From the NCBI RefSeq assembly GCF_000178955.2, contig NC_016631.1, positions 3,410,001 through 3,474,000 on the forward strand: a stretch of 64,000 nucleotides of DNA, given 5' to 3'. Shown in pieces: positions 27,425 to 57,749 of this stretch. A model generated the notes under the pieces. It saw only the letters and a list, made by a program, of their open reading frames with translations. It did no database searches and was not told the origin of the DNA. This DNA comes from Granulicella mallensis MP5ACTX8 (lineage in GTDB: Bacteria; Acidobacteriota; Terriglobia; Terriglobales; Acidobacteriaceae). Positions within the stretch are counted from its first letter, which is position 1; each line of letters starts with the position of its first letter. A program made the position numbers and the translations under genes.

Positions 27425-27441
27425 AACACCCTCCTATTTGC

Positions 27442-27471: not shown

Positions 27472-27500
27472 CTGCGCCCTGGAGTTACGGTGTAGGTTGA

Positions 27501-27575
27501 GGCGCGGTACCCAAGTGGTAAGGGAGAGGTCTGCAAAACCTTTATGCGTCGGTTCGATCCCGACCCGCGCCTCCA
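27501..27575 (+). tRNA. tRNA-Cys (GCA); integration target of the island
   Basis: The acceptor GGCGCGG (27501-27507) pairs with CCGCGCC (27565-27571), then T and CCA. The anticodon arm GAGGT-CTGCAAA-ACCTT gives GCA. The D-arm and T-arm (TCGGTTCGATCCCGA) are normal. The 3' half from the anticodon loop onward is repeated at 51265-51312, marking it as the attachment site of a genomic island whose insertion kept the tRNA intact. Confidence 0.97.
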
Positions 27576-27578
27576 AAT
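27531..27578 (+). repeat. attL: left attachment site of the genomic island
   Basis: This 48-bp segment starts CTGCAAAACCTTTATGCGTC and covers the 3' half of tRNA-Cys plus AAAT. It is identical to 51265-51312. Tyrosine-recombinase islands typically use this part of tRNA genes. The 320 bp to the right, up to 27899, contain no gene that I can support. Confidence 0.92.
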
Positions 27579-27899
27579 TGCTTATTTGCAACGACTTACA
27601 GGCCATGTAAATGCCCTCTTAATTGCCGGTTTGTCTGTTAAATGGAAACCAGGAAAAATATAAGTAATTGATTGATAATGGTTTGTCTCATTTAGCGCTT
27701 CCCCTCTAAACCTTCCCCTTCGCCCTCCAAAATAACGAAATAGCGGAGCTGGCTGCCAAATGGCTTCCATTTCATTTCCGCATGACGTGTCGCGTCACAG
27801 TGCCTGAGCACGTTCCACAATTCAGGTTTCGGCAACGGAAGACGCACCATTGGACATTTCAGAGTCACGTCTCATGATGCTCGCCTTTCGCAGTATGGA

Positions 27900-29213
27900 T
27901 TGTTGTATCGGATTGCTCAGTTCCTAGCCGCAAAACATGGAACGCTCAATAGAGAACCTGCATTCGACGTCAAGATGCAGAGTCAGAAAGGTCGGCTTCC
28001 ACGAAGTCAAACGCCTATGCTCAAAGCCGATGAGGTACCCGGTTTGCTCGCCCTACTTCAGACCAATTGGCAGGCCGAGATGGAGGATTACGCTACCTAC
28101 AGGGCTTTAGCTTCGAGAGAATCTGACTCCCGCCGACGCAATGTCATGAGAGGGCTCGCCGCAGCTGAGAGACATCACGCCTACCTTTGGGCTGATGAGA
28201 TCAGTGCTATAGACGGACCGACGTTGATCTATAGCGGCGATGCAAACGGACGTGCCGATCTCCTTTCCAAGGGTGTTGGAGGAATCGACGCCGAACTCCG
28301 TCAACTCAGAATCCACGAACGAAGCGAGATTGAGCGTTACAGCAAACAAACGTTGAATCTCACGAATGAGGCTTGTCAGAAGATCTTGCTCGAAGTGATC
28401 GCGGACGAGAACGATCACTACAAGACTCTGAGCGGTCTGATCCGCGCCCGCCCTCCACTCCCGGCGATGGATGGTTCTCAGGCTAGAACAGCCCTTGCGG
28501 CTCTGTTGGCCGCTCGCAAAAAGCGACATCCAGAGGCTGCTGGCTGGCTCAACGATGCCATTTACGCTGCTCACGATGGCCTGGGCTCAATCTTCGGTAT
28601 CGTCTCTGGAGTCGCCGGGGCCACTCTCGGAAAAGGTCACTATGTGCTTATCGCGGGTCTCGCAGGAATGGTGGGAAGTGCTTTATCCACTGGCACAGGA
28701 GCTTACCTCACTTCCCGGAGCGAGCGGGAACTCTATGACGCTGGACTGATGCGGGAACGAAAGGCCGTTGATTACGACGAATCGGAAGCGCGCGAAGTCT
28801 TGGCGCTGAGTCTGCAGGTCCGCGGCCTTCCAGAAGATGTCGCAGGAAGGTTGGCCCACTTACTAGCTGAGAACAAAGAGGGGTTCGTGAAAGCGCTTAC
28901 GCGTATCGGAGCGAACCTTTCAGAGGAAAATCTCAGCAATCCCTGGGTTGCAGCCTTGACCGGATTTACCGCGACAGCGGTTGGTGCTTTCGTTCCGATC
29001 ATCCCGTTCTTCTTTTTGTCAGGTGTTCCAGCAATCGCACTCGCAGCAGTCGTCTCTTTGTCGGCCCATTTCGCAGTTGGCGCTACAAGATCGCTCATGA
29101 CCGTACGGCCCTGGTGGCGATCTGGCCTTGAACTAACGGCCTTTGGAGCCGTCGAAGGTATTATCACGTTCTCCATCGGAGTTGTCTTGGGGCGATTAGT
29201 CGGTACACACTAA
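27900..29213 (+). CDS. mbfA: Membrane-bound ferritin/VIT iron exporter (MbfA type)
   Basis: 437 residues in the listed frame. The N-terminal half is a ferritin-like (rubrerythrin) helical domain with iron-binding glutamates and histidines in AEMEDYATYRAL, AAERHHAYLW and VIADENDHYKTL. The C-terminal half is a VIT1/CCC1 transporter with hydrophobic helices from IFGIVSGVAGATLGKG onward to FSIGVVLGRLVGTH. This fusion is known as MbfA (erythrin-VIT) in alphaproteobacteria, where it exports iron under excess iron and peroxide stress. The start is uncertain: TTG 27900 gives an odd leader, and ATG 28017 (MLKADEVPGLL) is a good alternative. Confidence 0.85.
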   Translation: MLYRIAQFLAAKHGTLNREPAFDVKMQSQKGRLPRSQTPMLKADEVPGLLALLQTNWQAEMEDYATYRALASRESDSRRRNVMRGLAAAERHHAYLWADEISAIDGPTLIYSGDANGRADLLSKGVGGIDAELRQLRIHERSEIERYSKQTLNLTNEACQKILLEVIADENDHYKTLSGLIRARPPLPAMDGSQARTALAALLAARKKRHPEAAGWLNDAIYAAHDGLGSIFGIVSGVAGATLGKGHYVLIAGLAGMVGSALSTGTGAYLTSRSERELYDAGLMRERKAVDYDESEAREVLALSLQVRGLPEDVAGRLAHLLAENKEGFVKALTRIGANLSEENLSNPWVAALTGFTATAVGAFVPIIPFFFLSGVPAIALAAVVSLSAHFAVGATRSLMTVRPWWRSGLELTAFGAVEGIITFSIGVVLGRLVGTH

Positions 29214-29243
29214 TTGCTCGCCGAAGCCCGGACCGAAGACCTC

Positions 29244-30248
29244 CTACGGCTCGGACTCAAGCACAGTCAAGGTTTTCCCGGTGGAACTAGCGAGGAGAGA
29301 ATCGGCGGTGACAACCAGGGTCACGCCAGGCGTGAGTACGCCGTCTAGCGCTTTACGGAAAGCATCGGGCATTGTTACTCTTGCGCGCTCTGAGGCCGGA
29401 AGCTCACGATTCCCCTCCCAGCTTTGTCCGGGAAGCGGCAATTGCAACCAATGGAATCCCTGTGGATCTACCTTCGAAAGACTGTAGGCCGTTGTTTCAG
29501 ACACCGCGCCCGCGATAGTCACTGGCGCAGAGCCGATTAAAATCCCGTTGCGAAGAACAACCAATCGATGGTCTGGTGCGCTCAAGATGACAGATACAGG
29601 ACCTGATAGGGACTTCTGAGGTTCCCAGATAGCGCCGCCCGCATCTTCCGCTTTCGTCGCAGCCTCGCTCTGCAATAAATCCGGAGTTGGAGCCAGTCGA
29701 GGAACTGCGTCCAAGTCAGTGATCACCACGGTCATCCCCCGCTCAGTCGTTCCGTACAAGAGCTTCGCAAAGACCAGCGGCATTCGGATGCAACCGTGTG
29801 ACGCTGGATATCCGGGTAAGTTTCCCGCGTGCATCGCAACGCCTGACCACGTCAGGCGCTGCATGTATGGCATCGGTGCGGAGTCATAGAGATTGGATTT
29901 GTGATGCACCTGCTTTTGCAGGACCGTGAACACGCCCGTTGGTGTCTGATGGCCAGGCTTTCCCGTCGAAGCCGTGGCTGCGCCGATTAGAACGCCATTG
30001 CGATAGACATAGACACGCTGAGACGTAAGGCTGATCACAGCCAGTACTGATCCAGATGGTGCGACCATCGGAGCCCAAAGATACTGTCCTGGCTTTAGTG
30101 CCTGAATGCCATCCGCCAGATTCGAAGCCAAAGGGCTGGAGACCTGCTCCCATATCGATGGTGCATACGTGCTTATGGACGCAAACCCGCCGGCGACATA
30201 CCAGATGAACTTTCGTCTGGATTCTCTTGATTCCACTTCACGCTCCAT
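29244..30248 (-). CDS. L,D-transpeptidase (YkuD domain), membrane-anchored
   Basis: 334 residues. The catalytic motif SHGCIRM has H151, C153 and R155, with an earlier histidine in GVAMHAG (140), as in ErfK/YbiS/YcfS/YnhG enzymes that form 3-3 cross-links or attach proteins to peptidoglycan. The N-terminus has a hydrophobic segment after RRKFIWYVAGG, so it acts in the periplasm. The C-terminal 120 residues repeat a similar beta theme (VSVILSAPDHRLVVLRNGIL) and may be a substrate-binding domain. It is an island gene, convergent with mbfA. Confidence 0.87.
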   Translation of the reverse strand: MEREVESRESRRKFIWYVAGGFASISTYAPSIWEQVSSPLASNLADGIQALKPGQYLWAPMVAPSGSVLAVISLTSQRVYVYRNGVLIGAATASTGKPGHQTPTGVFTVLQKQVHHKSNLYDSAPMPYMQRLTWSGVAMHAGNLPGYPASHGCIRMPLVFAKLLYGTTERGMTVVITDLDAVPRLAPTPDLLQSEAATKAEDAGGAIWEPQKSLSGPVSVILSAPDHRLVVLRNGILIGSAPVTIAGAVSETTAYSLSKVDPQGFHWLQLPLPGQSWEGNRELPASERARVTMPDAFRKALDGVLTPGVTLVVTADSLLASSTGKTLTVLESEP

Positions 30249-30553
30249 TCAGCTGACCAATAGATCGATATGCATTCGCAGAGCCGTGGCAAAGGCTCAT
30301 TCGCATCCCTAGCAAACCAAAGCACTCACACGGTATCGAGTAGGTGCGGTCCAAGCAAGGTTTGACACCTCTGAGATCGTCCAATGCTGGCACCCCTGCC
30401 AAGATAAGTAGAACTATCGCCAGGGGGGAGCCTAAATAGAAAGCCGACGTGACGAAATCCCAGCATCCCGATAACACCCCCATTCTGAGTCCGCTCGTGG
30501 CCTGTGAGTTTCCGCAGATAGTTGAATGGCATTCCAATTCCATTCCAGCTCGT

Positions 30554-31072
30554 TCAAACCAGATGAGGCGAGATTTCGTCAGATGGCACATCCCTTCCGG
30601 TAGGAGAGTGCTCTAAAGTCGATATCACCGCCTTCGATGGATCGCTCTCTGCGGGTCCTTTGTGCAGCGAAATCCAACCCAACCCCGAGAGGCTAAGAGA
30701 TTGCGGTCCAATACTCGTACGGGAAGGAACTCGCCGACCCGAGAAATCTTGGGTTAGACAGAATAGAGTTTCGAGCAATTGTTCGGGGCGGCAGTGATGA
30801 TCAATCGATTCGTCATAGAGGTGATCGTCTAGATTCAAAGGTGACATTCCGAAGATGAGGATTCGAGCGTTCGGATAGTAGAGTCGAATTTCCTGGGCCA
30901 GCTTACTGACGATCGAAGCCCCTAGACTGCGGCTAAGAATGGCCACCCTGATGTCAGTTTCCCGTATGTCAGGTGCAGGAACCGCCTCGCTGGAAGCGGC
31001 GACACGGTAGTCAGCTGCTGAAAGTAACTGAGCTCCGGCCGCCAGTAGCCCAGGATTCGGCTCAACGATCAA
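30554..31072 (-). CDS. Degenerate response-regulator receiver protein
   Basis: 172 residues with a receiver-like pattern: MIVEPNPGLLAAGAQLL, then RVAILSRSLGA, then NARILIFGMS and YDESIDHHCRPEQLLETL. The position of the phospho-acceptor aspartate after the third strand is held by serine (AILSRSLG), so it is probably not phosphorylated. About 60 polar residues follow with no output domain. The start is TTG; the real start could be upstream. It is upstream of the transpeptidase on the same strand, with about 300 bp between them in which I see no gene. Confidence 0.5.
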   Translation of the reverse strand: MIVEPNPGLLAAGAQLLSAADYRVAASSEAVPAPDIRETDIRVAILSRSLGASIVSKLAQEIRLYYPNARILIFGMSPLNLDDHLYDESIDHHCRPEQLLETLFCLTQDFSGRRVPSRTSIGPQSLSLSGLGWISLHKGPAESDPSKAVISTLEHSPTGRDVPSDEISPHLV

Positions 31073-31209
31073 TATCCCTGAGGGAAGAAATGCGTATTGG
31101 TTTGAGTTGCTCTTCTGAAGTTTGCATTAATCCTCCTCGTACTCTGGATGAGTCTGTCAGACGCTTTCGTGGGAATCTTGCCTTCCGAGCTGATCGCAAC
31201 TCCAATTGA

Positions 31210-31655
31210 GCTTTTGACTAGCTAAGAACACTGAATCATTCTCTTCTTCCTCGATGGGGGTTTATGTATCGGATTGCTCAGCGTTGCGGTGCGGCGGCAT
31301 TGACTTATAAGCCGCAGTGCAAAAAGGTATATTCCCATGGCAGCAAAACCAACGGTCGAAGAGAAGTAGATTGAATCTCTTGAACAGGCGCAGAAAGCAA
31401 GGCAGTACACGGGGTATTCCGCAAAGCAGGCCGTCGCAGCCGCATAGAGAAGGAACTCGATGCGCTTCACGAATCCTACGACACAACCAAACTATGCTTG
31501 CCGGTTCTCAAAAAGCCAGCCTCGAACCAGATCGAGTACACTGACGACACCATAGAAGCAGCCGAGTCGCAAAGACTAATGAGTATCATTTTGAGCAGCT
31601 TCCATCCGCAAAACTAGAACGATGGGTCGCAACTATCCAGAAAGTTGCTCGGACG
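31210..31655. other. Gene-poor stretch with decayed reading frames
   Basis: No intact gene is convincing here. On the plus strand, a frame starting MAAKPTVEEK at about 31336 stops at once. A neighbouring frame ending at 31617 stays open for about 70 codons (GRRSRIEKELDALHESYDTT, then LPVLKKPASNQIEY) without a start. Together these look like a small gene broken by frameshift. TGTATCGGATTGCTCAG at 31265-31281 is identical to 27904-27920. Confidence 0.35.
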
Positions 31656-33215
31656 ATGAAGTTCGCAGATGTTCATGAATTCGAGTCGCAGGCTCACGTT
31701 CAAAAGGTTGGCGCCGCAATCTGTCTCGCTGATCCGATAGAGCAACAGCACGTTCTGACGGCTGTAAGCGAGATGAAGATTTCAACGACGATCTTCAACG
31801 CCGAAGCCAAAGAGCTCCAACGCCTAAAGACATTCGAATTCATCGTTGCGGATCAACTCGTCGCGCAGGAACTCGTTCTTCTCTTCGAACAGGACGAAGT
31901 CGACGGCGATGGAATCAGTCCTGCAATCATCGCCGTCATTCACCAAGAACCTGAACACCCATCTAAGTCCACCCAAGTCGACTGCAACTTCGATGGATTC
32001 CTTAACTTCCCGATGAGCCAGACTGAGATCTCGACCCAACTTTCAGTGATCATGTACGCGCATTGCGCGTTTGCAAAGCGGTATTCCGCTGCATGGAGAG
32101 AACTGCATCTGAATCGAAGAATCTTCCGTTCAGTCACTACTGGTATTTCTGTTGCCAGCGCAACACTACCCGATCTTCCTCTGGTTTATGTCAACCCGGC
32201 CTTTGAGGAGATGACAGGCTATAGCCGAGCTGAAGTCCAGGGACGGAACTGCCGATTCCTTGAGGGGAATGAGCGGAGTCAGCCCGGCCTTGCGATTGTG
32301 CGGGATGCTTTGTCCAATCGCCGCAAGGGCGTCGCGATTCTAAAGAATTTCAGAAAGGATGGAACTCCGTTTTGGAATGAGCTCTCCTTGTCTCCGATTT
32401 CGGATGATAACGGTCAGCTAACTCACTATGTGGGAATTCAGACCGATGTGACCAAGCGTGTCGATCTTGAGATGGCCCTCCGTGAAAGTGAGAAGCTTGC
32501 AGCCGTGGGCCGCTTGGCGTCTTCTATCGCACACGAGATCAATAACCCTCTCACCTCCGTCATGAACCTCACTTTTCTGGCACAAGGCACAGAATGCTCG
32601 CAAGACACAAAGGACTATCTGGCTACTGCAGATCGAGAGTTGAGGCGTGTCAAACTCATCACCGAACAGTCGCTACGATTCTTCAGGCAGTCGACAAAAG
32701 CGCAGTCTACAAGCCCGGCTAAACTCCTGGAACCGATTCTCGACCTCTATCAATCTCACGCGAGCAATGCAGGGGTAAAGACAATCGTTAGAGAACGGCC
32801 AAGTCGATCCATCGTTTGCATGGAAAGCGAAATCCGCCAAGTTCTCAGCAATTTGGTGGGCAACGCGATCTACGCGATGCAGGAACACGGCGGTCAATTG
32901 TTCATTCGAAGCCGTGAGACCAGAGAGGGAAACCAAGGGCGAGAGGGACTCGTGTTCACGGTCGCAGATAACGGAACAGGGATGAGTACTGAGACCCTAA
33001 GCTGCATCTATAAGGCCTTCTTCACAACGAAGGGTATCGGGGGTACTGGCCTTGGGCTATGGATAAGCTGCGAGATTATCGAGCGTCATCGCGGGAACAT
33101 CAAGGTCCGCAGTAGCCAGCGAGCCGGAGCATCGGGAACAGTTTTTCAGTTGTTCTTGCCATATCAAGGCATCGCTTCGCAAAGAGAAATTGACGACATC
33201 TCAAGGTTTTCCTAG
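31656..33215 (+). CDS. LOV-domain sensor histidine kinase (blue-light photoreceptor type)
   Basis: 519 residues. Residues about 15-135 resemble a degenerate receiver. Residues about 152-268 are a LOV-type PAS domain with the flavin-adduct motif GRNCRFLEG (Cys199) and the FMN contacts NFRKDG, FWNELSLSPI and YVGIQTDVT. The kinase core has the H-box SSIAHEINNPLTS (His293), N-box LVGNAIYAM (N403), G1 DNGTGM (438-443) and G2 GGTGLGL (462-468). It should autophosphorylate in response to blue light. There is no transmembrane segment, so it is cytoplasmic. No cognate response regulator with an output domain is adjacent; the receiver-like gene at 30554 lacks the acceptor Asp. Confidence 0.9.
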   Translation: MKFADVHEFESQAHVQKVGAAICLADPIEQQHVLTAVSEMKISTTIFNAEAKELQRLKTFEFIVADQLVAQELVLLFEQDEVDGDGISPAIIAVIHQEPEHPSKSTQVDCNFDGFLNFPMSQTEISTQLSVIMYAHCAFAKRYSAAWRELHLNRRIFRSVTTGISVASATLPDLPLVYVNPAFEEMTGYSRAEVQGRNCRFLEGNERSQPGLAIVRDALSNRRKGVAILKNFRKDGTPFWNELSLSPISDDNGQLTHYVGIQTDVTKRVDLEMALRESEKLAAVGRLASSIAHEINNPLTSVMNLTFLAQGTECSQDTKDYLATADRELRRVKLITEQSLRFFRQSTKAQSTSPAKLLEPILDLYQSHASNAGVKTIVRERPSRSIVCMESEIRQVLSNLVGNAIYAMQEHGGQLFIRSRETREGNQGREGLVFTVADNGTGMSTETLSCIYKAFFTTKGIGGTGLGLWISCEIIERHRGNIKVRSSQRAGASGTVFQLFLPYQGIASQREIDDISRFS

Positions 33216-33538
33216 AGGATCTGATGCGGTTTATCTCCCTGTCGGCCCGTAGAACGCTGAGTCCGGCTTCGGGGAATGGACGGCGTCTCTAAATGAAGAT
33301 TCACAGGGTGCTGCCAACGCTCCATGAAGGCGGTCGCAACCGTGAGTGAAGCTTTCAGTTGTGCGGGGCTCAACAGCCCTGCATCAGTTGACGTGCTGCA
33401 TCGCTCCAAATCCGTTATAAGAGTTTTCATTTCAACACCTTCACAATTTCCTACTGCGATCTGGCTTAAGTCCATCTGTGGCAAATCTGCGTTCATCTTC
33501 TTCGCAACAAACGAGTGATACTGTGCATTTGTGCTCAT
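33212..33538 (-). CDS. Small hypothetical protein
   Basis: 108 residues from MSTNAQYHSFVAKKMNADLP, with GAGG 6 bp before the ATG. The frame is open further upstream to 33712, but without a matching ribosome-binding site. It is helical with a polar C-terminus and no recognisable domain. It overlaps the 3' end of the LOV kinase by 4 bp (tail to tail) and diverges from the Crp/Fnr gene. A similar leader (GAGGCCAACAA then ATG) precedes the oleate hydratase, which favours a real start. Confidence 0.45.
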   Translation of the reverse strand: MSTNAQYHSFVAKKMNADLPQMDLSQIAVGNCEGVEMKTLITDLERCSTSTDAGLLSPAQLKASLTVATAFMERWQHPVNLHLETPSIPRSRTQRSTGRQGDKPHQIL

Positions 33539-33719
33539 AGTTGGCCTCGTTCCGTTCCTCTGATCCTTTACGGCGCTGAACATTCCGACACGTATCTGCA
33601 GCTCATTTTGGGTTTCGCCTCGCACAGCCCCCCTTGGGGGCATCAGAATAGGTGTCACTTGTTCGCGACATTCATCGTGAGCTTCAGTCCAAGCTCTAAC
33701 TTGGATTGACATCTGCTCA

Positions 33720-34631
33720 GTGGCCCGTGAACGGAAGAAGGCCCAAATGCCGCACCGGAAGCTAAAAGAATTCGATCCCGCAGCCTTTCTCGCTACCTCA
33801 GGATTAGGTCGCCGGATCGTTCACATCAAAGCCAAGGGAACTCTGTTCTCACAAGGGAGCGTTGCAGATTCTGTGTTCTATCTGCAAAAGGGGCGAGCGA
33901 AGCTCACGGTCGTGTCCAAGGCCGGCAAGGAAGCAACCATTACGCTCATCGCCGCTGGCGACTTTGTCGGGGAGGAGTCGGTCACCGCTATTGCGGGATT
34001 GCATATGTCCACTGCAACTGCAATTACCACCTGCTCTGTGCTGAAGATCGAACGGGTAGAGATGATGCGGGTCATCCACGATGAACACGCCTTTTCCGAC
34101 ATCTTTGTTGCTTTCCTCTTAGATCGGTCCATGCGAACCCAAGCGGATCTTGTGGACCAGCTATTCAATTCGAGCGAACGACGGCTAGCTAGAATTCTCC
34201 TGCTCATGGCGGATTTCGGGAAGCCTGGTGAGCCAGAGACAGTGATTCCCCGGATTACGCAGGAAACCTTGGCCGATATGATCGGGACAACCCGATCCCG
34301 GGTGAGTTTCTTCATGAACCGATTCCGCAAGATGGGGTTCATTGAATACAACGGCCGCATTCATGTTCACAAGTCCCTGCTCAACGTGGTTCTTCATGAT
34401 CAGAGGCCAGGCGCGAACTCGATCAGCGCCGCGCTTCTTGATACGAAACGAGACAAGACAAAACCGGCAAAACGAGCGTCCGCCTCAACAAGAAAAATGA
34501 TGGCCGTATCTGACGAGAGGCCTCTCGACGATGCGGTTGACTCGCCTCGACTACAACGGAGTCAAAGCAAGCGAAATGCGTATCGAATTGCTCAGAACTC
34601 ATGGTCTACGGGTGGAACACTGAGACCTTAG
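33720..34631 (+). CDS. Crp/Fnr-family transcriptional regulator
   Basis: 303 residues. A cyclic-nucleotide-binding-like beta barrel covers about 25-135 (GTLFSQGSVADSVFYLQKGR; AAGDFVGEESVTAIAG). A Crp-type winged helix follows near 175-235 (TQETLADMIGTTRSRVSFFM, then NRFRKMGFIEYNGRIHVH). The N-terminal four-cysteine cluster of true Fnr is absent, so iron-sulfur oxygen sensing is unlikely. A basic tail of about 65 residues follows the wing. The GTG start is used. A role in controlling the island stress genes is inferred from position. Confidence 0.85.
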   Translation: MARERKKAQMPHRKLKEFDPAAFLATSGLGRRIVHIKAKGTLFSQGSVADSVFYLQKGRAKLTVVSKAGKEATITLIAAGDFVGEESVTAIAGLHMSTATAITTCSVLKIERVEMMRVIHDEHAFSDIFVAFLLDRSMRTQADLVDQLFNSSERRLARILLLMADFGKPGEPETVIPRITQETLADMIGTTRSRVSFFMNRFRKMGFIEYNGRIHVHKSLLNVVLHDQRPGANSISAALLDTKRDKTKPAKRASASTRKMMAVSDERPLDDAVDSPRLQRSQSKRNAYRIAQNSWSTGGTLRP

Positions 34632-34672
34632 TGCGGTAAATCGCAACGGCAACGCCGCAACGAGGAGATTTC

Positions 34673-35200: not shown

Positions 35201-35280
35201 TTCCTGCTATCCGCTGGATGGCGATACAAAGCGCCATCCAGCGACATCGTATACCCAAAGAGCATGAGCAGACATCTGCC

Positions 35281-37413: not shown

Positions 37414-37448
37414 TGGACGTTATCTCGATCCGGTTTTGTTCAGGCAGA

Positions 37449-38602: not shown

Positions 38603-38698
38603 CTTGATCTCCAGAAGGCACATTCTTTGTGCGCAGCACTTCTATGCTCTTCCATCTCATAACCGGAAGACTGAGCAGTTTTGTACATATTCTTGGGC

Positions 38699-40330: not shown

Positions 40331-40557
40331 TTGTTGGCCTCTTCTTTCCCTGCATCTAGAGGTTCTCAAGGCCACGAGAGATGATCTGGTTCATTTTGCA
40401 CACTTCCAGTCAACCGGCTGCGAAACCGGACCTGCTTCAGAACGGAGTGAGCAAAAAGACACAGTACGGCTAGGCATTGAATGCGAGGCTCAACAGACGT
40501 GCGTTCCTATAGATGCGCGGCTGGCCTTGATCGAAAGGGACCGGCGCAAAGGAGCAC

Positions 40558-42933: not shown

Positions 42934-42997
42934 AACGAAAGAGCTATGTGAGCAAAGCTATACAGTTTTGTATTTTCGCGAGTGCCATGCTTAATGC

Positions 42998-43681: not shown

Positions 43682-43769
43682 ATCAAGATCGAACGCTTGG
43701 CTGCAGTCCCACCGATATCCATAAGTCTCTGTCGTCCCACGAAAGAAGATACAAACGAAACGGAGAAGT

Positions 43770-44234
43770 ATGCCAATCCTCACCGCTGGAACAACAGCCC
43801 CAGAGTTCCGTCTCCACGTCACCCCGGATCAAAAGCTTTCACTGAGCGAGTTGCGCGGCAAACCCGTTGTGCTCGCGTTTTATCCCGCAGACTGGAGTCC
43901 AGTCTGCGGGGACGAACTCAGCGTGTTCAATGAGATCTTGCCGGAGCTGCTCAAGTACAGTGCCGAGCTTGTCGCCATCTCGGTAGACGGCGCCTGGTGT
44001 CACGATGCCTTTGCCAAGCATAAGCATCTTCACTTCTCGTTGCTCTCTGATTTTGAGCCGAAAGGCGATACGGCCCGCGCTTATGGTTCCTATCGCGAGG
44101 CGGATGGTGTCTGCGAACGCGCTCTCTTTGTTCTCGACAAGAACGGCGTCATCACATGGAGCTACTGCTCACCGGTGGCGGTAAGTCCCGGCGCAGACGG
44201 CATTCTGAAAGCTCTCGAAGCACTACCGAAATAG
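43770..44234 (+). CDS. Peroxiredoxin (AhpC/TSA family)
   Basis: 154 residues. The thioredoxin-fold peroxidase motif is present as AFYPADWSPVCGDEL, with peroxidatic Cys46. A second cysteine (WCHDAF, near 77) and those in DGVCERAL and WSYCSPV could resolve. The catalytic threonine of the usual PxxxT/SxxC motif appears as serine (WSPVC). It should reduce peroxides with a thiol donor. It is 8 bp from the DsbA-like gene, with which it forms a redox pair. Confidence 0.88.
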   Translation: MPILTAGTTAPEFRLHVTPDQKLSLSELRGKPVVLAFYPADWSPVCGDELSVFNEILPELLKYSAELVAISVDGAWCHDAFAKHKHLHFSLLSDFEPKGDTARAYGSYREADGVCERALFVLDKNGVITWSYCSPVAVSPGADGILKALEALPK

Positions 44235-44242
44235 GAGGAAAA

Positions 44243-44779
44243 ATGAGCAAACTATCCATCGGTGTATCGAAGCACGACCACCTCCAAGGCAAACTGAATG
44301 CGGCATGTAGCCTTGTCGAATATGGCGACTATGAGTGCCCGTCATGCGGAGAAGTCCAGCCGACCATCAGAAGCTTACAAGCTCATCTCGGCAACCGGAT
44401 GTCCTTCGTCTTTCGCAATTTTCCCTTGCGGGAGATCCACCCGTGGGCCGAGCCCGCCGCTGAGGTGGCGGAGTTTGCCGGAAGTCAAGGTAAGTTCTGG
44501 GAGATGCACGATCTGCTGTTCGCAAATCAAGAGAGCTTGGACGAGAGTACGTTCCACGCACTCTTGGAGAAACTGGGCTTGACCGATTCGGGCCTACAAC
44601 TCGCGCGATCCAGCGGAACGGCGAAAGAGAGAATCGACGCCGATTTTACTGGAGGTATCCGGAGTGGTGTGAACGGAACGCCGACCTTTTTTCTGAATGG
44701 AGATCGATACGACGGTCCCACAAACTACGAATCTCTGGTTACGCTGATGGAGCAGGTTCTCATCTCGAATGGGGATTAG
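44243..44779 (+). CDS. DsbA-family thiol oxidoreductase
   Basis: 178 residues from MSKLSIGVSKHDH; AGGAGG is 5 bp before the ATG. The redox site is CPSC (Cys32, Cys35) after LVEYGDYE. The cis-proline loop appears as GVNGTPTFFLNG. The helical insert FPLREIHPWAEPAAEVAEFA is typical of DsbA-like proteins (PF13462). There is no signal peptide, so it is probably cytoplasmic, unlike classical DsbA. It overlaps the dehydrogenase gene tail to tail by 4 bp. Confidence 0.87.
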   Translation: MSKLSIGVSKHDHLQGKLNAACSLVEYGDYECPSCGEVQPTIRSLQAHLGNRMSFVFRNFPLREIHPWAEPAAEVAEFAGSQGKFWEMHDLLFANQESLDESTFHALLEKLGLTDSGLQLARSSGTAKERIDADFTGGIRSGVNGTPTFFLNGDRYDGPTNYESLVTLMEQVLISNGD

Positions 44780-45876
44780 GGAACAATCACGATCGATCCA
44801 GATTCGTCTTCGTTCTTCACCGCGATGAGAGCTTTGTGGGCATCTTCCAGCGAGAAGATGGTGACCTCCGGCCGAAACTGGAGTTGTCCTGCCAGCTTGA
44901 GAAAGTCCCGGGCGTCGTCGCGGGTCATGTTCGCCACACTGCGGATCTGTCGTTCACCCCAGAGCAACTTGTCGTAATCGAATGCCGGCATCTGATCCAA
45001 ATGGATCGCGTTGACCGCGACAACCCCGCCCTTCCTAAGACAGCTCAGCGCACTGATCACAACCTTGCCACTGGGAGCAAAGGTAATCGCCCGATCCAAC
45101 AACGCTGGAGGAACGGTATCTTCGTCTCCTACCCAAGTTGCTCCGAGCGACGTGGCGAAGTCGCGGTGTGCCCGCCCCCTCGTGACGACATAGACCTGAC
45201 ACTTCCAAAACTGCAGGATTCGGATGGCTAAAGCTGCAGAACTGCCAAAACCGAAGAGCCCTACCTTTTCACCGGGTATCACTCCGGCGACTCGCAGGCT
45301 CCGGAAACCGATGATACCTGCACACAGCAATGGAGCAACCTGCGCGTTGTCCAACTCGTCGGGCAGTGGATATGCAAAGTCCTCGCGAACCAGTACAAAC
45401 TCCGCGTAACCGCCATTCACTGAATATCCAGTGAAGACGGGATGGTCACAGAGATTCTCCATGTGATTCTGGCAATACCAGCAATCCCCATCGACGCCAC
45501 CCATCCAGGAGACACCCACCCGTGTCCCAAGGGGAAGACGAAGAGTAGCTCCTTCCACAACCTCACCAACAATTTGATGGCCCGGAATGATTTTCGGAGA
45601 GAGGGCAGGCAGATCTCCCTCGATTATATGGAGATCGGTACGGCAGACACCGCAAGCAAGCACGCGGAGAAGGAGGTGCCCTGCCATCAATCTCGGGCGT
45701 GGAACGTCCATGATCTCTACCAATTGAGCAGGGCTCGAACGATTCGAATCGTAGACAGCAGCTTTCAACTCTGACTCCGGTGGTAAGTCTGACTCCATTA
45801 TGGAGGGACTGGGAGCATCCTCGGTGAAAGGATTGAGGATTACTGTGCCGGATTGCTCGCACAAACGGAGACACAA
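44776..45876 (-). CDS. Zinc-dependent alcohol dehydrogenase
   Basis: 366 residues in the full frame. The catalytic-zinc residues lie in ACGVCRTDLHI, GHQIVGEV and later LLCAGIIGFRS; the nucleotide-binding motif is GLFGFGSSAALAI. The structural-zinc lobe reads DGDCWYCQNHMENLC, in which the first of the four usual cysteines is aspartate or absent. The TTG start at 45876 gives an unusual leader; the ATG at 45798 (MESDLPPESELKAAVYD) is more typical. The substrate is not predictable; aldehyde detoxification or fermentation would fit the island. Confidence 0.85.
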   Translation of the reverse strand: MCLRLCEQSGTVILNPFTEDAPSPSIMESDLPPESELKAAVYDSNRSSPAQLVEIMDVPRPRLMAGHLLLRVLACGVCRTDLHIIEGDLPALSPKIIPGHQIVGEVVEGATLRLPLGTRVGVSWMGGVDGDCWYCQNHMENLCDHPVFTGYSVNGGYAEFVLVREDFAYPLPDELDNAQVAPLLCAGIIGFRSLRVAGVIPGEKVGLFGFGSSAALAIRILQFWKCQVYVVTRGRAHRDFATSLGATWVGDEDTVPPALLDRAITFAPSGKVVISALSCLRKGGVVAVNAIHLDQMPAFDYDKLLWGERQIRSVANMTRDDARDFLKLAGQLQFRPEVTIFSLEDAHKALIAVKNEDESGSIVIVP

Positions 45877-46291
45877 GTTCAGCTAACGGTCTAACGAAGG
45901 CATCATGCAACCACTAGGTCGCAGGTTCCGAACAACTTCACGATACATGCATGGGCAAGTGCAACCTGAGACACCGCCATGGTCGCCAAGACAATCAGCG
46001 GTGGGCAATTGCTTCGTGTCCCGTACCCTGAACATGCCCCGTCACAACTGCAAATATCGTTGGAGCGATTCTCACAACGATCATTTTCGGCAAGTATTTT
46101 GAACGACATCGATACAACCTCTATCGACATTCTCATGCCAACAGCGGCGCATGTCTGCACTATCGAAGGCAGAGAGAACAGGAAACACCAAACTATTACC
46201 CAGAGAAGCCACTGCCGAAATTTTGCCCCAGGATGTTCGATAAATGATGGCCTTCTCCCAGGGGGCGTCGACGCGGTTGCGGCCCCTTCAA
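45877..46291. other. Stretch without a convincing gene
   Basis: Frames are open on both strands (for example a 132-codon minus frame with one hydrophobic segment), but none has a ribosome-binding site, a domain or clean composition. It may hold remains of a small membrane-protein gene: minus-strand frames near 46000-46110 show a hydrophobic run, IVVRIAPTIFAVVTGHV. Confidence 0.3.
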
Positions 46292-46573
46292 CTAAGGCCA
46301 ATCGAGCCGGGAAGTTCCCATTGCAACTCCCCTCGATCTGGCTCTCAGTCGCTGCTCCTTCTGAAGTTCGTCCAAACGATGACTCAGGATGTTCCCCCGC
46401 CCCACCAAGGCGTCCTTCGCAGCGAGCAGGCGCTCACGTTCCTCAGCGTCAAGAAGAGACGCAAGTCTCTGTCTCAAGCGAGCGAGCTCAGCGCGTTTTC
46501 CTGCCAGGAGGGCTGCACAGCCCTGAATCTCACCCTTCAGGATTTGATCTCTCGGCCCTGTTTGTATATTCAT
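46292..46573 (-). CDS. Possible small coiled-coil protein
   Basis: 93 residues, mostly one long amphipathic helix (ALLAGKRAELARLRQRLASL; DEERERLLAAKDALVGRG; ILSHRLDELQKEQRLRAR). The composition is protein-like and heptad spacing is visible. The ATG lies inside an AT-rich palindromic site (46565-46598), and no Shine-Dalgarno sequence precedes it. It would be divergent from the gene at 46688. No family is recognised. Confidence 0.4.
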   Translation of the reverse strand: MNIQTGPRDQILKGEIQGCAALLAGKRAELARLRQRLASLLDAEERERLLAAKDALVGRGNILSHRLDELQKEQRLRARSRGVAMGTSRLDWP

Positions 46574-46598
46574 ACATTCTAATATTACTATATATTCA
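46565..46598. promoter_or_regulatory. AT-rich operator-like site 1
   Basis: TATATTCATACATT (46565-46578) and TATATTCA (46591-46598) lie in the divergent gap before the spermidine-synthase-like gene. The first 12 bases recur at 48529 upstream of the ArsR-family gene, and TATATTC is a half of the palindrome at 50210-50231. Confidence 0.5.
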
Positions 46599-46687
46599 GC
46601 GACTGAACGGTGGCTCTACGCCAATCGCTCTCACGCGATCCATCGCTCAGGGATCAACGTACCTTCAGTTCTTAAGCGGGGATAGAT

Positions 46688-47473
46688 TTGGGACAAAGTC
46701 AGTATTGCGATCCACGTTGCAGCGCTTTCGCACTCGAACCAAGAAGAAGATCAACGGTGCCGCCATTCGTCTACGAAGATGCCGGCTTCCTGACCCTGCA
46801 GTTTCAGAGTTGCGTCGTCCAAAGCGAAATGAAAGCGGACGACCCCGGACTGCTTACTCTCTCGTACACACGCACGATGATGGGTTTCTTGCTCCTCAAT
46901 AGCTCCCCCAAGAACATCGCCATGATTGGCTTGGGCGGCGGCTCAATATCTAAGTGGTGCTACAAGGAGTTACCCGCGACCGACATCACGGTGATTGAGA
47001 TAAACCCCGGGGTGATCGCGCTCAGAGAGGTCTTTCACATTCCCCAGGATGGCGATCGTTTTCACCTTGTTTGCGGAGACGGTGCAGATTACGTGGCCGA
47101 AACTTCCGACGAGCCTGAAGTCTTGCTCGTGGACGGCTTCGACTATGACGGACAGCCACCCCAACTTTGCTCTCAGACGTTCTACGACAATTGCTATCGT
47201 GCGCTTGGTCCCAACGGCATACTGGTGGTTAATCTCTGCGGTCTAAACGACCGTGTGCTGCTAGACCGCATCCAGCGCAGCTTTCCAGAACAGGGCATCG
47301 TCGTGGTTCTGCCAGAAGACGGCTCCAACAAGATCGTGTTCGCGACCAAAGGTGATAATCGGTGGCTGCTGGACGAGCCGCTGCTGCACGTTCTGACCCG
47401 CTTCGGAAACCGCACGAAGACGGAACTCTGCGAAGCTGCGAGTTCACACCTGGCTGCTGAGATACGAACGTAG
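46688..47473 (+). CDS. Spermidine-synthase-like methyltransferase-fold protein
   Basis: 261 residues. The Rossmann core has [13 protein letters not shown], the acidic strand end [16 protein letters not shown], and [11 protein letters not shown], as in spermidine synthases. The second catalytic region reads [15 protein letters not shown], where polyamine synthases have a conserved aspartate-rich turn. The N-terminal beta domain is short. Many stand-alone homologues are not proven polyamine enzymes. The TTG start has GGGGAT upstream. It lies 11 bp before the KAS III gene, with which it probably forms an operon. Confidence 0.75.
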
Positions 47474-47484
47474 TGAGAGGTTCC

Positions 47485-48503
47485 ATGAAACTACAAATAC
47501 AGCCTCGGCTCGCAGTGCGGGCCAAGATCTCTTCTTTGGGAACTTTCGTCCCGCCAGCCGTCATAACGAATGCCGATCTGGAGAAACTTGTAGAGACGAC
47601 GGACGAGTGGATCGTTGAGCGCACCGGCATCCGGGAACGGCATGTAGTGGCTAAGGGGGTTGCGACCAGCGATCTCGCGGCCGAAGCAGCCAAACAATGT
47701 CTCACTCAACGGGGCGTCAACGCCAGTGACGTTGACGCGATCATCGTAGCGACCGTCACCCCGGACATGACGTTCCCATCTACAGCGTGCTTGGTGCAAA
47801 CAAAAATTCCGCGCTACCAAGGCTTGGGGGTTTGATCTCTCTGCCGCCTGCGCAGGATTTATTTACGCACTACAGATGGGCGCCAAGCTGGTGGAGTCAG
47901 GAGCCCACACCAAGGTATTGGTGATAGGCGCCGATGTGATGAGTTCCATTCTGGACTACACAGACAGAGCCACTTGCATCCTTTTCGGCGATGGCGCTGG
48001 GGCGGTATTGCTGGAGCCATGCGCTGAAGGTGAAGTCGGCATGATTGATTTTCTTCATGAAATCGATGGCTCTGGAGGTCAAAGCCTCTACATGCCGGCG
48101 GGGGGATCGTTGCTGCCCACTTCAGAGGAAACGGTCAAGAACCGGCAGCACTTCGTTGTGCAGGACGGCCGGGGCGTCTATAAGTTTGCGGTGCGCAAGA
48201 TGCCGGAAATAGCGACCGCCTTGCTTGCCCGCAACGCGTTAGAGACCAAGGACCTCGACTGCTTCATCCCCCCACCAAGCGAATCGACGCATCATCGAAG
48301 CGGTCGGGGAGCGTCTTGGTCTGGACAAAAAACAGATTGTTGTGAACATCGAAAACTTTGGAAACACAACCGCCGCTACCATCCCTCTTGCTATGGCATC
48401 TGCGCTGAAATCCGGACAACTCGAACGAGGCAACCTTGTTATGCTCGCCTCGGTGGGTGCCGGATTTTCTGCAGGAGCTACGCTGCTTCGCTGGGAAACG
48501 TGA
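47485..48503 (+). pseudogene. 3-oxoacyl-ACP synthase III (FabH-like), two frameshifts
   Basis: The three pieces together make a full KAS III. Piece 1 runs from ATG 47485 (after GAGAGG) to RYQ. An extra base near 47822 shifts the frame, and piece 2 continues [12 protein letters not shown] with the catalytic cysteine. An extra C in a six-C run near 48272 shifts it again. Piece 3 has [16 protein letters not shown] (catalytic His), [12 protein letters not shown] (Asn) and ends LLRWET. All active-site residues are present, so the decay is recent or the changes are sequencing errors. KAS III makes acetoacetyl-ACP or related condensations. Confidence 0.8.
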
Positions 48504-48528
48504 TTTCCGGGACAGGTTTCAGCTTTGA

Positions 48529-48555
48529 TATATTCATACATTGCAATATAGGAAT
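48529..48555. promoter_or_regulatory. AT-rich operator-like site 2
   Basis: TATATTCATACATTGCAATA begins at 48529 and is followed by TAGGAAT. The first 14 bases repeat the site at 46565. It is positioned to control the micro-ORF and ArsR-family gene downstream. Autoregulation by the ArsR-family protein is an inference. Confidence 0.5.
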
Positions 48556-48566
48556 ACACTCAGACC

Positions 48567-48734
48567 ATGGCAAACGCATTAGCAAATCGGCCCAACTTCC
48601 TCGTACGCCTTCTCATGAATGTGGCAAAGTCCTTCGGGATATCGAACGCTGCGGATCGGAAACCGTCACCTGGATCTTGGAGGGAGAAAGAAGCAAACCA
48701 GCGTTGTTCGACAGGTGGTGAGGAGAAGAAGTGA
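48567..48734 (+). CDS. Micro-ORF coupled to the ArsR-family gene
   Basis: 55 codons ([20 protein letters not shown], then KSFGIS and a polar tail). The TGA stop overlaps the GTG start of the next gene (GTGA, 48731-48734), and the AGGAG used by that gene lies inside this frame, a layout typical of translational coupling. The first 25 residues could form an amphipathic helix. No family is recognised. Confidence 0.45.
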
Positions 48735-49105
48735 GGCAGACGGTTCGATCGCTGAATGCTAATATTCAAAGACATATGAAGGCATCGAACCCCATTGAGC
48801 TCAGCCTTTTCAAAGCCGAGTTCTTCAAGGCGCTTGCACATCCGATGCGTATCCGTATCGTCGATGAACTCCGCGCCGGCGAAATTGGAGTGAATGATCT
48901 CAGCTCCAGGCTGGAAGTGGAACAAAGCACGCTCTCACAGCAGCTTGCCATTCTCCGCGCTCGCCATATTGTGAACGCCCGCAAAGAAGGCTTGAGCGTT
49001 CTCTACTCGATACGAGACCCGGAGATCTTTCGGCTTCTCGATGTGGCGAAGAAAATCTTTAATAAACACTTGGTCGGTGTTCAGGACATGCTGGCCAATC
49101 TGTAG
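48731..49105 (+). CDS. ArsR/SmtB-family transcriptional regulator
   Basis: 124 residues with the winged-helix pattern: FFKALAHPMRIRIVDELRAG, recognition region DLSSRLEVEQSTLSQQLAIL, then wing VNARKEGLSVLYSI. There is no cysteine in the whole protein, so the ELCVCDL metal site of ArsR is missing and the inducer is probably not a thiol-bound metal. The GTG start has GAGGAG upstream; ATG 48776 is possible. It is the likely binder of the TATATTC sites at 46565, 48529 and 50210. Confidence 0.87.
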   Translation: MRQTVRSLNANIQRHMKASNPIELSLFKAEFFKALAHPMRIRIVDELRAGEIGVNDLSSRLEVEQSTLSQQLAILRARHIVNARKEGLSVLYSIRDPEIFRLLDVAKKIFNKHLVGVQDMLANL

Positions 49106-49143
49106 CGAGTCGCGGCCATTCCGGTTGCCCGCGTGCATGTCCT

Positions 49144-49362: not shown

Positions 49363-49376
49363 GGTTCTCAGGACAC

Positions 49377-50138
49377 TCACCTGGAGTTCCGCGCTGCCGC
49401 GGCTCTGATATCGTCAATCAGCGGAACGGTCGCCAGGATCACCAGAACCACGGCTAGAAACAGTGTTGCGGAAAAGCCAATGCGCTTGAATCCTATTGCC
49501 CCCACGACGCCGCCCGAGAAAAACAACAAGACGAGAGAAGATAGTAGCCACAGTTTCTTCCTGTCCGCTCTCACCATCGGCTTCGACTCGTCATGGCGCG
49601 AAGCGTTCCAATAGAAGAGTTTGCCGAGCTCTATGCCGATGTCTGTCACCATTCCCGTGACGTGAGTGGTACGAACCTCCGCGTGAGAGAGCTTCGTGAT
49701 GATGGCGTTCTGAAGCCCCATGATGAAACAGAGCAGCATTACACTGGCCGGAACGAAAAGCCATTCATGATGCTCTAGGTTCCCACCCAACAATCCGAAG
49801 GCCACCATGAGCAGCGCTTCAAGCATGAGTGGAAGCGCGTATTCACTGTGCTGCTCTCTCCGGCGGCCCCAGTTGATGAGGATCGCCGAGAACCCCGCGC
49901 CCGCCATGAATGAGACGAGCGCCCCCAGCGCAGTCATCACCAATCCGACATCTCCCAAAGCCAGGTTGTCTGCCATCGCCGACACGATGCCAGACATGTG
50001 CGAGGTGTACTGTTTGACTGCTAGAAACCCTCCGGCATTCGTTGCCCCGGCGATGAACGCGAGATAACGCGCCAACTGTCTGTCGGCAGTCTGCTGTCGA
50101 TGCTTTCCAGTTAGTCCGCGTAAATAGATAATTGGCAT
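49377..50138 (-). CDS. DUF1275 (YoaK-type) membrane protein
   Basis: 253 residues from MPIIYLRGLTGKHRQQTADR, the usual start of this family, with six to seven hydrophobic helices. Diagnostic parts are AFIAGATNAGGFLAVKQYTS, HMSGIVSAMADNLALGD and CFIMGLQNAIITKLSHAEVR with RTTHVTGMVTDIG. Function is unknown. The frame is open upstream to 50285, but that part contains the palindrome at 50210-50231, so the inner ATG is preferred. Confidence 0.85.
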   Translation of the reverse strand: MPIIYLRGLTGKHRQQTADRQLARYLAFIAGATNAGGFLAVKQYTSHMSGIVSAMADNLALGDVGLVMTALGALVSFMAGAGFSAILINWGRRREQHSEYALPLMLEALLMVAFGLLGGNLEHHEWLFVPASVMLLCFIMGLQNAIITKLSHAEVRTTHVTGMVTDIGIELGKLFYWNASRHDESKPMVRADRKKLWLLSSLVLLFFSGGVVGAIGFKRIGFSATLFLAVVLVILATVPLIDDIRAAAARNSR

Positions 50139-50209
50139 AGGCCCGCAAGCGTCCGATTGAAACCACCTGCCGAAAGGATGAGGGAGACCTTCTGGCAGGT
50201 CTCTTTCAT

Positions 50210-50231
50210 TATATTCGTAAAGATGAATATA
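50210..50231 (-). promoter_or_regulatory. AT-rich operator-like site 3 (perfect palindrome)
   Basis: TATATTC (50210-50216) and GAATATA (50225-50231) form a perfect 7-bp inverted repeat with an 8-bp spacer, about 70 bp upstream of the DUF1275 start. It shares the TATATTC half-site with the two other sites in this part of the island. Confidence 0.55.
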
Positions 50232-50289
50232 TAAATTTTCGTACTTGCTGCAGTCTCCCTCGATAGTGTCCGGTCTTGACGCCATCTAA

Positions 50290-50601
50290 CCACCACCATT
50301 CTGCGGCGGCCCGATCAAGCGACCGCGTCAATTCCAAAGAGACTATCTGACAAACGAGCACGGATTTCTCAATTGGTACTTTCTCAACCATGACGCGACA
50401 GCGTACGGCCTCGCCTCTGGTTTCCGCCCGGAATACTTCGCCTATCACGCATGGGCCGAGGCCAACGACTACCTGCACTCCCTGCAGACCCGCAGGAGCA
50501 CCAACTGCTACACCCTTCTCTGGCGCCAACTGCGTCACACGTCTTACCTTCGACGCTTTCTCGATGGCTCTACTCCGGCGACGGCACATGGACCAGCGTG
50601 A
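50290..50601 (+). pseudogene. Remnant of an unidentified gene
   Basis: 103 codons follow a TAA without any start codon. The sequence looks like real protein (RDYLTNEHGFLNWYFLNHDA, then GFRPEYFAYHAWAEANDYLH). Near 50570 another frame continues more naturally (SGDGTWTSVKSINELC), suggesting an added frameshift. No family is recognised. The rest of 50139-51264 shows no gene that I can support. Confidence 0.35.
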
Positions 50602-51264
50602 AGTCCATCAATGAGTTGTGCTTAATTCGGCCGCGATGTCCAGACGAGAATTCAGCATAATCCCAGTTGTCGGTACCCGCAAAGGGATATGTAACACTAA
50701 CCAAAGCCATCTCTGGCTTTGAACCGCCGAATATTTGGGTTCTTAAGCGCCCGAGGTAGCGTGGGTGCGGCAATCTTGAAACTTGGGTCCAAACTTGGAT
50801 CCAATCGCCCCAAATACCAGCTAAAACGGTGTACTACGACGCAACACCGGACTAGAAGAATCAATACGTTATAATATCCGCTTCGGTTTCGGGACCAGGA
50901 GGTCGGAGGGGAGGTTCGAATGTTCTCGCCACGACCATCTAAAGCCCACGTTTTCAACTAGCTAGAACCACGAGGGTTGTGGCTCCAGGCTCGATTTGAC
51001 TTCATTCGGGTCCAATTGCCAATTCTTCGATCCGACCCACTGCATTTCACGAGCCCCATGAGACCGCGTAAATGCGATGCAACCGGGTCACCTCCGAAGA
51101 GGTATCAGCGCAGACAGCGAATCTAACTCTACAAATAGGAGTCAGAACGCCCAAACTTTAAGGTTTCCAATAAGGGATAAAAGGGTACTAAAACCAACGA
51201 TTCCTAGGTACTTCATTCGACGGAATTCGCGGTATTTTCAATGCTTTATGCGAAGGCCCCAAAA

Positions 51265-51312
51265 CTGCAAAACCTTTATGCGTCGGTTCGATCCCGACCC
51301 GCGCCTCCAAAT
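51265..51312 (+). repeat. attR: right attachment site of the genomic island
   Basis: 48 bp identical to 27531-27578: the anticodon loop, T-arm, acceptor 3' strand and CCA of tRNA-Cys plus AAAT. There is no 5' half, so it is not a tRNA gene. It marks the right end of the island of about 23.8 kb. Confidence 0.92.
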
Positions 51313-57736: not shown

Positions 57737-57749
57737 TGGAATGTACCAA

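Follow-up and report, generated by a model that had tools for sequence, protein, structure and literature searches.

Tandem arrays of islands at RNA genes, and CIMEs (cis-mobilizable elements) that carry no integrase, are already established, as evident from the sections of two reports that are drawn on here (PMC3146451; PMC7563491). In the part of the first report that concerns ssrA of Dehalococcoides, tandem islands are located less than 100 kb from one RNA gene, are bounded by direct repeats of its 3′ end, differ in cargo, and carry their integration genes beside the left border on the reverse strand (PMC3146451). In the corresponding part of the second, streptococcal CIMEs form accretion arrays of tandem units at the 3′ end of one gene, which are flanked by attachment (att) sites and devoid of recombination and transfer genes, and the most decayed elements are always those farthest from the target gene (PMC7563491). 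Here we describe a locus with likenesses to both systems in a 64,000-nucleotide stretch of the genome of Granulicella mallensis MP5ACTX8 (NC_016631.1, positions 3,410,001 to 3,474,000), hereafter called the window. The element under study, U1 (27579-51264), is the tRNA-proximal unit of a four-unit tandem array at a tRNA-Cys gene. We conclude that U1 is very probably a mobile-type stress island that entered tRNA-Cys via site-specific recombination, and that it was the latest of the four units to arrive.

The locus also differs from these systems in several respects. According to the portion of the Dehalococcoides report used here, ssrA is targeted by a serine recombinase (PMC3146451), whereas the enzyme associated with the present tRNA-Cys site is a tyrosine recombinase (PF00589). 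Unlike in the streptococcal arrays, the units nearest to and farthest from the target gene (U1 and U4) are both without an integrase trace at their left ends, whereas the middle units U2 and U3 keep stubs, and no intact cognate integrase was found in the genome (no match at E<=1e-60). A literature search found no paper on tRNA-Cys islands with an integrase in Acidobacteria. The accessible text of the G. mallensis genome paper does not mention an island, an integrase, or the words mobile or horizontal, and the accessible text of PMC5900883 tabulates prophages and transposases with no mention of a genomic island. Tandem islands and CIMEs as such are known, and what sets U1 apart is the unusually clear link of its cargo to a plasmid.

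The tRNA-Cys array and its counterparts in relatives

The host genome is a single contig of 6,237,577 bp, in which the window corresponds to G000:C1:3410001-3474000. G000 designates the genome under study, other G numbers designate compared genomes, and positions above 64000 are window coordinates extended rightward. An intact tRNA-Cys(GCA) gene was called by ARAGORN at 27501-27575 on the plus strand, with a tRNA-Gly gene immediately upstream. Its 3′ end is the attachment site and constitutes attL of U1, and the gene served as the anchor for synteny in relatives. One copy of a 48-bp attachment core is located inside the tRNA gene (27531-27578, plus strand) and a second at the border between U1 and U2 (51265-51312, plus strand). 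As a preliminary description of the window had reported, the repeat is perfect (48/48 identical). Extension is impossible on either side, and the chance expectation for exact 48-mer pairs in 64 kb is ~7e-20.

That description took the repeat for the two borders of a single island of ~23.8 kb, with core genes outside. However, the genome contains the tRNA-Cys 3′ end five times over, always on one strand and at or downstream of the gene, and four of the copies are without the tRNA 5′ half. These copies begin at 27531 (the tRNA itself), 51265 (48/48), 86228 (45/48), 100529 (44/48) and 105198 (48/48), and they delimit units of 23.7 kb (U1), 35.0 kb (U2), 14.3 kb (U3) and 4.7 kb (U4), for a total of 77.7 kb reaching 105245. 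The tRNA-Cys island is genuine, but it is one of four tandem units, and no integrase was found within it. Likewise, core genes indeed occupy the left flank, but the window to the right of 51312 is array, namely the first part of U2. An assignment of 51313-64000 as core was ruled out by the further att copies and by comparison with the closest genome, G102, in which collinearity begins again only at 106096.

The G102 genome is 95% identical over the 5 kb compared to the left, up to 27578, and ~93% identical from 106096 onward, which is 850 bp past the last att copy. In G102 the ~18 kb between these flanks consist mostly of other DNA and include two additional att copies (48/48 and 46/48). Unit ends aside, the overlap of this DNA with the G000 array is limited to two pieces (222 and 234 bp, 94-95% identical) close to where U2 ends on the right, and when the stretch was searched at the protein level a single weak match (25%) emerged. 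Conversely, apart from unit ends and short matches, nothing corresponding to 64001-102000 was found in G102 or G108. As judged from these alignments, the 77.7-kb array is largely replaced by other DNA at the G102 site. Elsewhere in the two genomes, 20 kb (G000:C1:4700001-4720000 and G102:C1:508064-528062) are 99.4% identical, against 93-95% around tRNA-Cys, perhaps as a result of recent exchange.

The preliminary description had proposed that an empty site in a relative would join 27578 directly to 51313. This junction does exist in two relatives. When 27401-27578 and 51313-51773 are joined, the resulting sequence aligns to G108 with 600 of 637 positions identical (430 of 460 to the right of the junction) and to G102 with 261 of 269 identical (87 of 93 to the right), after which G102 diverges. 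However, what these genomes show is the left border of related elements, not an orthologous empty site. To look for U1 itself, DNA from 27579-47500 (19.9 of 23.7 kb) was searched with the ten best candidates scored per genome, and the matches listed for the other 27 members of the genus, G102 and G108 included, contain no collinear copy. The genus holds only pieces of at most 1.9 kb at 64-89% identity, which are loosely clustered in G101, G103 and G109, and G114 gave no match. Relatives of the U1 proton pump (62-72% identity) occur in 4 of 24 other same-genus genomes (G106, G111, G118 and G110).

In this family, the tRNA-Cys gene has been a landing site repeatedly. A copy of its 3′ end lies downstream on the same contig in 9 of 100 family genomes (G000, G098, G044, G072, G045, G015, G040, G023 and G030) and, among the 27 other genomes of the genus, in G102. 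Copies were accepted at >=46 bp and >=85% identity, those on other contigs were left uncounted, and the counts were read from listings in which matches of any kind came from 89 of 100 and 25 of 28 genomes.

Integrases and right-end arms

The DNA adjoining tRNA-Cys in G108 encodes a 495-amino-acid tyrosine recombinase, P0001 (PF00589, 52 bits, with helix-turn-helix and SAM-like parts). With five candidates scored per genome, matches to P0001 at E<=1e-60 were found in 8 of 300 family genomes, and some of these are incomplete, as evident by a match in two frames in G211 and partial matches in G300 and G066. In seven of the eight genomes the integrase gene is on the strand opposite to tRNA-Cys, at a distance of 88-116 bp from the 3′ end of the tRNA. 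For the eighth, G066, the 1.5 kb on either side of the integrase contain no called tRNA, and a 77% tRNA-Cys-like stretch is located nearby.

Other integrases are also encoded beside tRNA-Cys. Those of G098, G072 and G040 are mutually 49-63% identical, with the G044 enzyme more distant from all three (30-36%). The G072, G040 and G044 enzymes match the G108 integrase at only ~22-25% over 209-231 residues, and the G098 enzyme gives only a 37-residue match. Among 53 tRNA-Cys loci, which were selected partly for having repeats, an opposite-strand integrase frame follows within 3 kb of tRNA-Cys in eight, five of which supplied the profile; a weak same-strand match in G050 was left uncounted. The integrases that use the tRNA-Cys site of the family are of at least two kinds, the P0001 type and the type of G098, G072 and G040. 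An origin of the integrase from a phage or plasmid was considered and rejected, given that phage and plasmid matches are distant (24-27% identity among the matches listed, with every matching record <60%).

Traces of the P0001 type persist within the array. The left end of U2 (51313-51773, minus strand) matches the end of the G108 element beside its tRNA-Cys at 430 of 460 positions and contains an integrase remnant at 51387-51772, in which two frames together cover the C-terminal 129 residues of the G108 enzyme at 93% identity. A weaker remnant of 52 residues (54%) is present at the left end of U3, near ~86400-86550. Over their left ends as a whole, U2 and U3 resemble G108 at 93% and 87%, respectively. 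The left ends of U1 and U4 gave no significant match to integrase sequences.

The right ends of the units are related to one another. The right-end arm of U1 (51075-51264, plus strand) is 74% identical to the right end of U2 and 78% identical to that of U4, and it matches the last unit of G102 at 91% over 183 bp. For five of the six unit pairs, the similarity of the right-end arms exceeds 1.3 times the best of 100 shuffles (70-141 aligned bases, 74-82% identity), and U1-U3 is the one pair that does not clear this comparison. Right ends from G102 and G108 group with those of the G000 units.

Stress cargo shared with a conjugative plasmid

A megablast search of U1 against 72,556 plasmid records gave one match, plasmid pACIX903 of Granulicella tundricola MP5ACTX9 (188,167 bases). 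Gene families were called with Pfam and NCBIfam on 20 frames of U1, and pACIX903 matches 17 of these 20 proteins. Fifteen of the genes are collinear and co-oriented in the two molecules, from a VIT1 gene through an alcohol dehydrogenase gene (ADH), and the plasmid region involved is NC_015058.1:96462-120448. The shared order is interrupted on the plasmid by insertions of a YoaK gene and of a YoaK-nitroreductase-cupin block, and at the DNA level homology is unbroken over 34571-45781 at 72.5%. The plasmid is typed as conjugative (MOBF, MPF_T) with VirB-type and MobF genes annotated, and unlike U1 it is a free molecule with a type IV secretion system and a MobF relaxase. Among the papers searched, the genome paper is the only one that names pACIX903, and the terms conjug-, horizontal and stress are absent from its accessible text.

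The collinear module, for which the percentages given are matches on pACIX903 unless stated otherwise, opens with a VIT1-family transporter with an N-terminal rubrerythrin/ferritin-like part (27900-29213, plus strand; Pfam; 78%), an L,D-transpeptidase (YkuD; 29244-30248, minus; Pfam; 84%) and a 172-amino-acid frame with no Pfam match (30554-31072, minus; 62%, and 52% in Granulicella rosea). These are followed by a PAS (LOV-like)-histidine kinase (31656-33215, plus; Pfam, NCBIfam; 77%), which carries at residue 196 the sequence GRNCRFL, presumably a LOV-type motif, and for which blue-light receptor models score under cut-off. Next are a Crp/Fnr regulator (33720-34631, plus; Pfam; 92% over 254 of 303 amino acids), a YflT-type general stress protein (34673-35200, plus; Pfam; 93%), the glycogen debranching enzyme GlgX (35281-37413, minus; TIGR02100 above cut-off; 80%), a 215-amino-acid protein that is hydrophobic by eye and has no family match (37449-38096, minus; 80%) and a universal stress protein (Usp; 38093-38623, minus; Pfam; 72%). 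The order continues with an oleate hydratase (38699-40375, minus; NF010584 above cut-off; 80%) and a P-type proton-efflux ATPase (40558-42933, plus; 82-83%, and 82% in G. rosea), whose best model, TIGR01647, scores 565 bits, under its cut-off of 615.5. It ends with a 227-amino-acid protein with no family match (42998-43681, plus; 76-83%, in two frames on the plasmid), a peroxiredoxin (AhpC/TSA; 43770-44234, plus; Pfam; 93%), a DsbA-type thioredoxin (44156-44779, plus; Pfam; 70%) and the ADH, a member of the zinc-binding alcohol dehydrogenase family (44776-45876, minus; TIGR02822 above cut-off; 85%). On pACIX903 the H+-ATPase and 227-amino-acid genes are each annotated as two frames (L274 26196-29108), and the U1 copies are single frames.

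Beyond the collinear module, U1 carries a spermine-synthase-like protein (SpeE; 46688-47473, plus) and a broken fabH (47473-48721, plus), and it is SpeE and both fabH pieces that find no match on the plasmid. The fabH gene is split into frames 47473-47835, which comprises the N-terminal ~100 residues, and 47876-48721, which matches the middle part only. The last two genes encode an ArsR regulator (48731-49105, plus; 78%) and a DUF1275 (YoaK family) protein (49377-50285, minus; Pfam; 55%, and 72% in G. rosea). Coverage by simple gene calls is 75% in U1 versus 88-91% in the flanks. The stress genes named in the preliminary description (the VIT1 gene with its ferritin-like part, the L,D-transpeptidase, PAS kinase, H+-ATPase, Usp, oleate hydratase, and the peroxiredoxin with DsbA) are all present, and its mention of broken reading frames is borne out for fabH, the sole frame checked for breaks. 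Based on the gene families it encodes, U1 may be of benefit under acid, iron, redox, starvation and light-linked stress.

A variant of this module resides on a chromosomal contig of Granulicella rosea DSM 18704, where 11 U1 proteins are encoded in a 22-kb locus (NZ_FZOU01000002.1:39130-61424), the richest among the best 80 named loci around proton-pump relatives. Within 60 kb around the cluster, 13 of the 20 U1 proteins find a match, with GlgX represented only by pieces of 65-69 residues. The 22-kb locus contains no called tRNA, and the single tRNA-Cys match of G. rosea is ~475 kb from the stress cluster on the same contig. Immediately beside the cluster are genes recognized by eye as a cytochrome oxidase/bc operon (G324:C8:58852-66778), and relatives of these genes are also present ~46 kb to the right of the G000 array (extended coordinates 151370-159517).

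By gene content and order, then, the stress module is not tied to tRNA-Cys. It is also found on a plasmid and, away from tRNA-Cys, in G. rosea, so that it has at least three homes including the attachment site, and the cargo of U1 is judged to be portable. The recurrence of the cargo in order on a conjugative plasmid supports the earlier suggestion of a portable survival module.

Routes of entry and significance

The favored sequence of events would begin with a circular molecule that bore the stress module together with an attP composed of the last 45-48 bp of tRNA-Cys plus the right arm. A tyrosine integrase of the type that is intact in G108 would have recombined this circle with the 3′ end of tRNA-Cys, and the reaction would have rebuilt the tRNA on the left and left the 48-bp repeat on the right. 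The same event, having occurred at least three times earlier, would account for four tandem units, and U1 would have been the last to arrive because it separates the tRNA from the left end of U2. The cargo has its own history, as evident by its similar order on the conjugative plasmid and by the variant elsewhere on another chromosome. On pACIX903 the ArsR gene lies ~2.7 kb upstream of VIT1 in the same orientation as in U1, whereas in U1 it is downstream of ADH at the far end (48731) and comes to lie ~2.5 kb before VIT1 only when the ends of U1 are joined. This arrangement fits the integration of a circle that was opened between ArsR and VIT1. A simple circular permutation for every gene was rejected, since ArsR fits it and DUF1275 does not. 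Site-specific integration at tRNA-Cys, as put forward in the preliminary description, is supported by the junction in G108 and G102, by the absence of a collinear U1 there among the matches listed, and by the integrase family found at tRNA-Cys.

Several observations weigh against this account. A PF00589 search gave no match in U1, and no integrase frame is seen at its left end (27579-27899). This left end has no above-shuffle similarity to the left ends of the other units or, in the loci of 53 relatives, to the 600 bp that follow tRNA-Cys, and the left end of U4 is likewise an orphan that resembles no other. Because U1 combines the lack of an integrase with an orphan left end, an enzyme of the G108 type is only a candidate for its insertion. 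An orthologous site that is strictly empty was not observed, since the one in G102 is occupied by other units and G108 differs in its right flank. On pACIX903 the 45-bp tRNA-Cys end is absent (best 27/45 in the 181,900 of 188,167 bases read), and the DUF1275 gene is inverted relative to G. rosea and is only 55% identical between U1 and the plasmid. Finally, the tetranucleotide distance of U1 (0.110) is inside the background range (maximum 0.123).

In terms of its ends, then, U1 is a unit with a family right end, an orphan left end and no integrase found. The same features would be accommodated if an incoming molecule, such as a plasmid, had entered by homologous recombination across the 48-bp repeats or arms already in the array. 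The homology would be supplied by the exact repeat and by the right arm, of which 183 bp match the last unit of G102 at 91%. However, the left border of U1 is exactly the 3′ end of tRNA-Cys, a site that is used by integrases in relatives, and recombination across such short homologies is usually poor. We therefore regard this route as unlikely, and site-specific recombination at tRNA-Cys remains our preferred explanation.

Composition had been suggested as a further means of telling the island from its surroundings. At 53.7%, the GC content of U1 is indeed lower than in any of the 17 windows of 20 kb that were sampled from the genome (mean 58.1, standard deviation 2.1, minimum 54.7), and the GC step at 27.5 kb is real. 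However, the right core flank itself has 55% GC and the tetranucleotides of U1 are not foreign, such that composition alone is no proof of an island and was dropped as a chief argument. The ordinary tetranucleotide profile would even suit the notion that U1 is old resident DNA that was kept here and lost in relatives, with the repeats marking other insertions at its borders, as would the many U1 genes on a chromosomal contig of G. rosea ~475 kb from tRNA-Cys. We disfavor this notion and consider it very improbable, as both borders of U1 coincide with attachment cores, G108 and G102 have the junction without U1, no collinear copy is found among the matches listed for the other 27 genomes of the genus, and a copy of the module resides on a conjugative plasmid.

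Additional information on the assembly of the array comes from U2, which includes a 12.1-kb catabolic block (51816-63945, minus strand) with MFS, hydantoinase B/A, GntR-like (by eye), DUF2891 and TonB-type genes. This block is 92% identical over 12.1 kb to DNA at another place in G102 (C1:483571-495715), whose surroundings yielded neither a tRNA (in an 80-kb scan) nor an att-like sequence or integrase. One anchor collinear with G102:C1 is present in G000 near 4.69 Mb. Because the block begins directly past the truncated integrase, U2 is composite, and its integrase may have been lost upon entry of the block. The region 64001-102000 gave no megablast match in plasmids. In G039, a member of another genus, relatives of the U2 hydantoinase B/A, GntR-like, TonB-type and DUF2891 genes (42-66%) directly follow tRNA-Cys at 30-8676 bp (L069), and no integrase frame was found within 3 kb at that locus.

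These features of U2 bear on whether the whole 77.7-kb composite could have arrived in one step after assembly in another cell. In the part of the streptococcal report used here, accretion elements can move as composites (PMC7563491), and the right-end arms of the present units are related to one another. However, the att copies are unequal in divergence (48/48, 45/48, 44/48 and 48/48), and the 92% match of the U2 block elsewhere in G102 points to separate assembly within the lineage. A one-step arrival seems quite improbable to us, and successive integration with U1 as the latest unit is favored.

With regard to class, U1 exhibits insertion at the 3′ end of an intact tRNA gene, a direct repeat at the far border (48/48) and absence from the same site in G102 and G108, as is typical of tRNA islands, but it does not have its own integrase beside the att site. 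For this reason it is filed as an integrase-less (CIME-like) derivative and not as a self-integrating island. Consistent with this assignment, U1 is att-flanked and its 20 frames include no recombinase, relaxase or conjugation genes by Pfam. With respect to a possible derivation by deletion from an integrative and conjugative element (ICE) or integrative and mobilizable element (IME), the right arm of U1 is related to those of units in integrase-bearing arrays, and its left end is unlike theirs. Pfam scans of the 20 U1 frames and of 18 of the 30 gene calls in U2-U4 revealed neither a relaxase or type IV secretion system, as would be carried by an ICE or IME, nor structural phage genes, as would be carried by a prophage (PHROGs were not searched). 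Given the lack of an integrase in U1 and the presence of stubs in U2 and U3, the units are CIME-like, meaning att-flanked and unable to move alone. Because no intact cognate integrase was found, the array is probably frozen in this strain and U1 immobile here.

To the left of the array, two adjoining genes on the minus strand (16928-18265 and 18467-19837) have long tracts of exact identity in common, ~1.54 kb apart, within 16917-18577. The pair is a tandem duplication, perhaps subject to gene conversion.

A broader possibility, which we offer only tentatively, is that tRNA-Cys is a docking port throughout the Acidobacteriaceae, where at least two integrase types may bank, as integrase-less units, circular stress modules that would be carried by conjugative megaplasmids as well. 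The array might then be a reservoir that exchanges with plasmids and that preserves, for example, an intact form of the proton pump that is split in the plasmid relative.

Now that the borders are known exactly and a candidate integrase and a plasmid relative can be named, the mobility of such units and the benefit they provide become testable. The cargo at this site differs between sister species. One gene set, with its proton pump, iron and oxidative stress functions, Crp, Usp and a light-sensor-like kinase, occurs not only in a chromosomal array but also on a conjugative plasmid and, away from tRNA-Cys, on another chromosome. The repeated use of a single tRNA gene as a landing site illustrates how soil acidobacteria acquire and exchange genes for survival.

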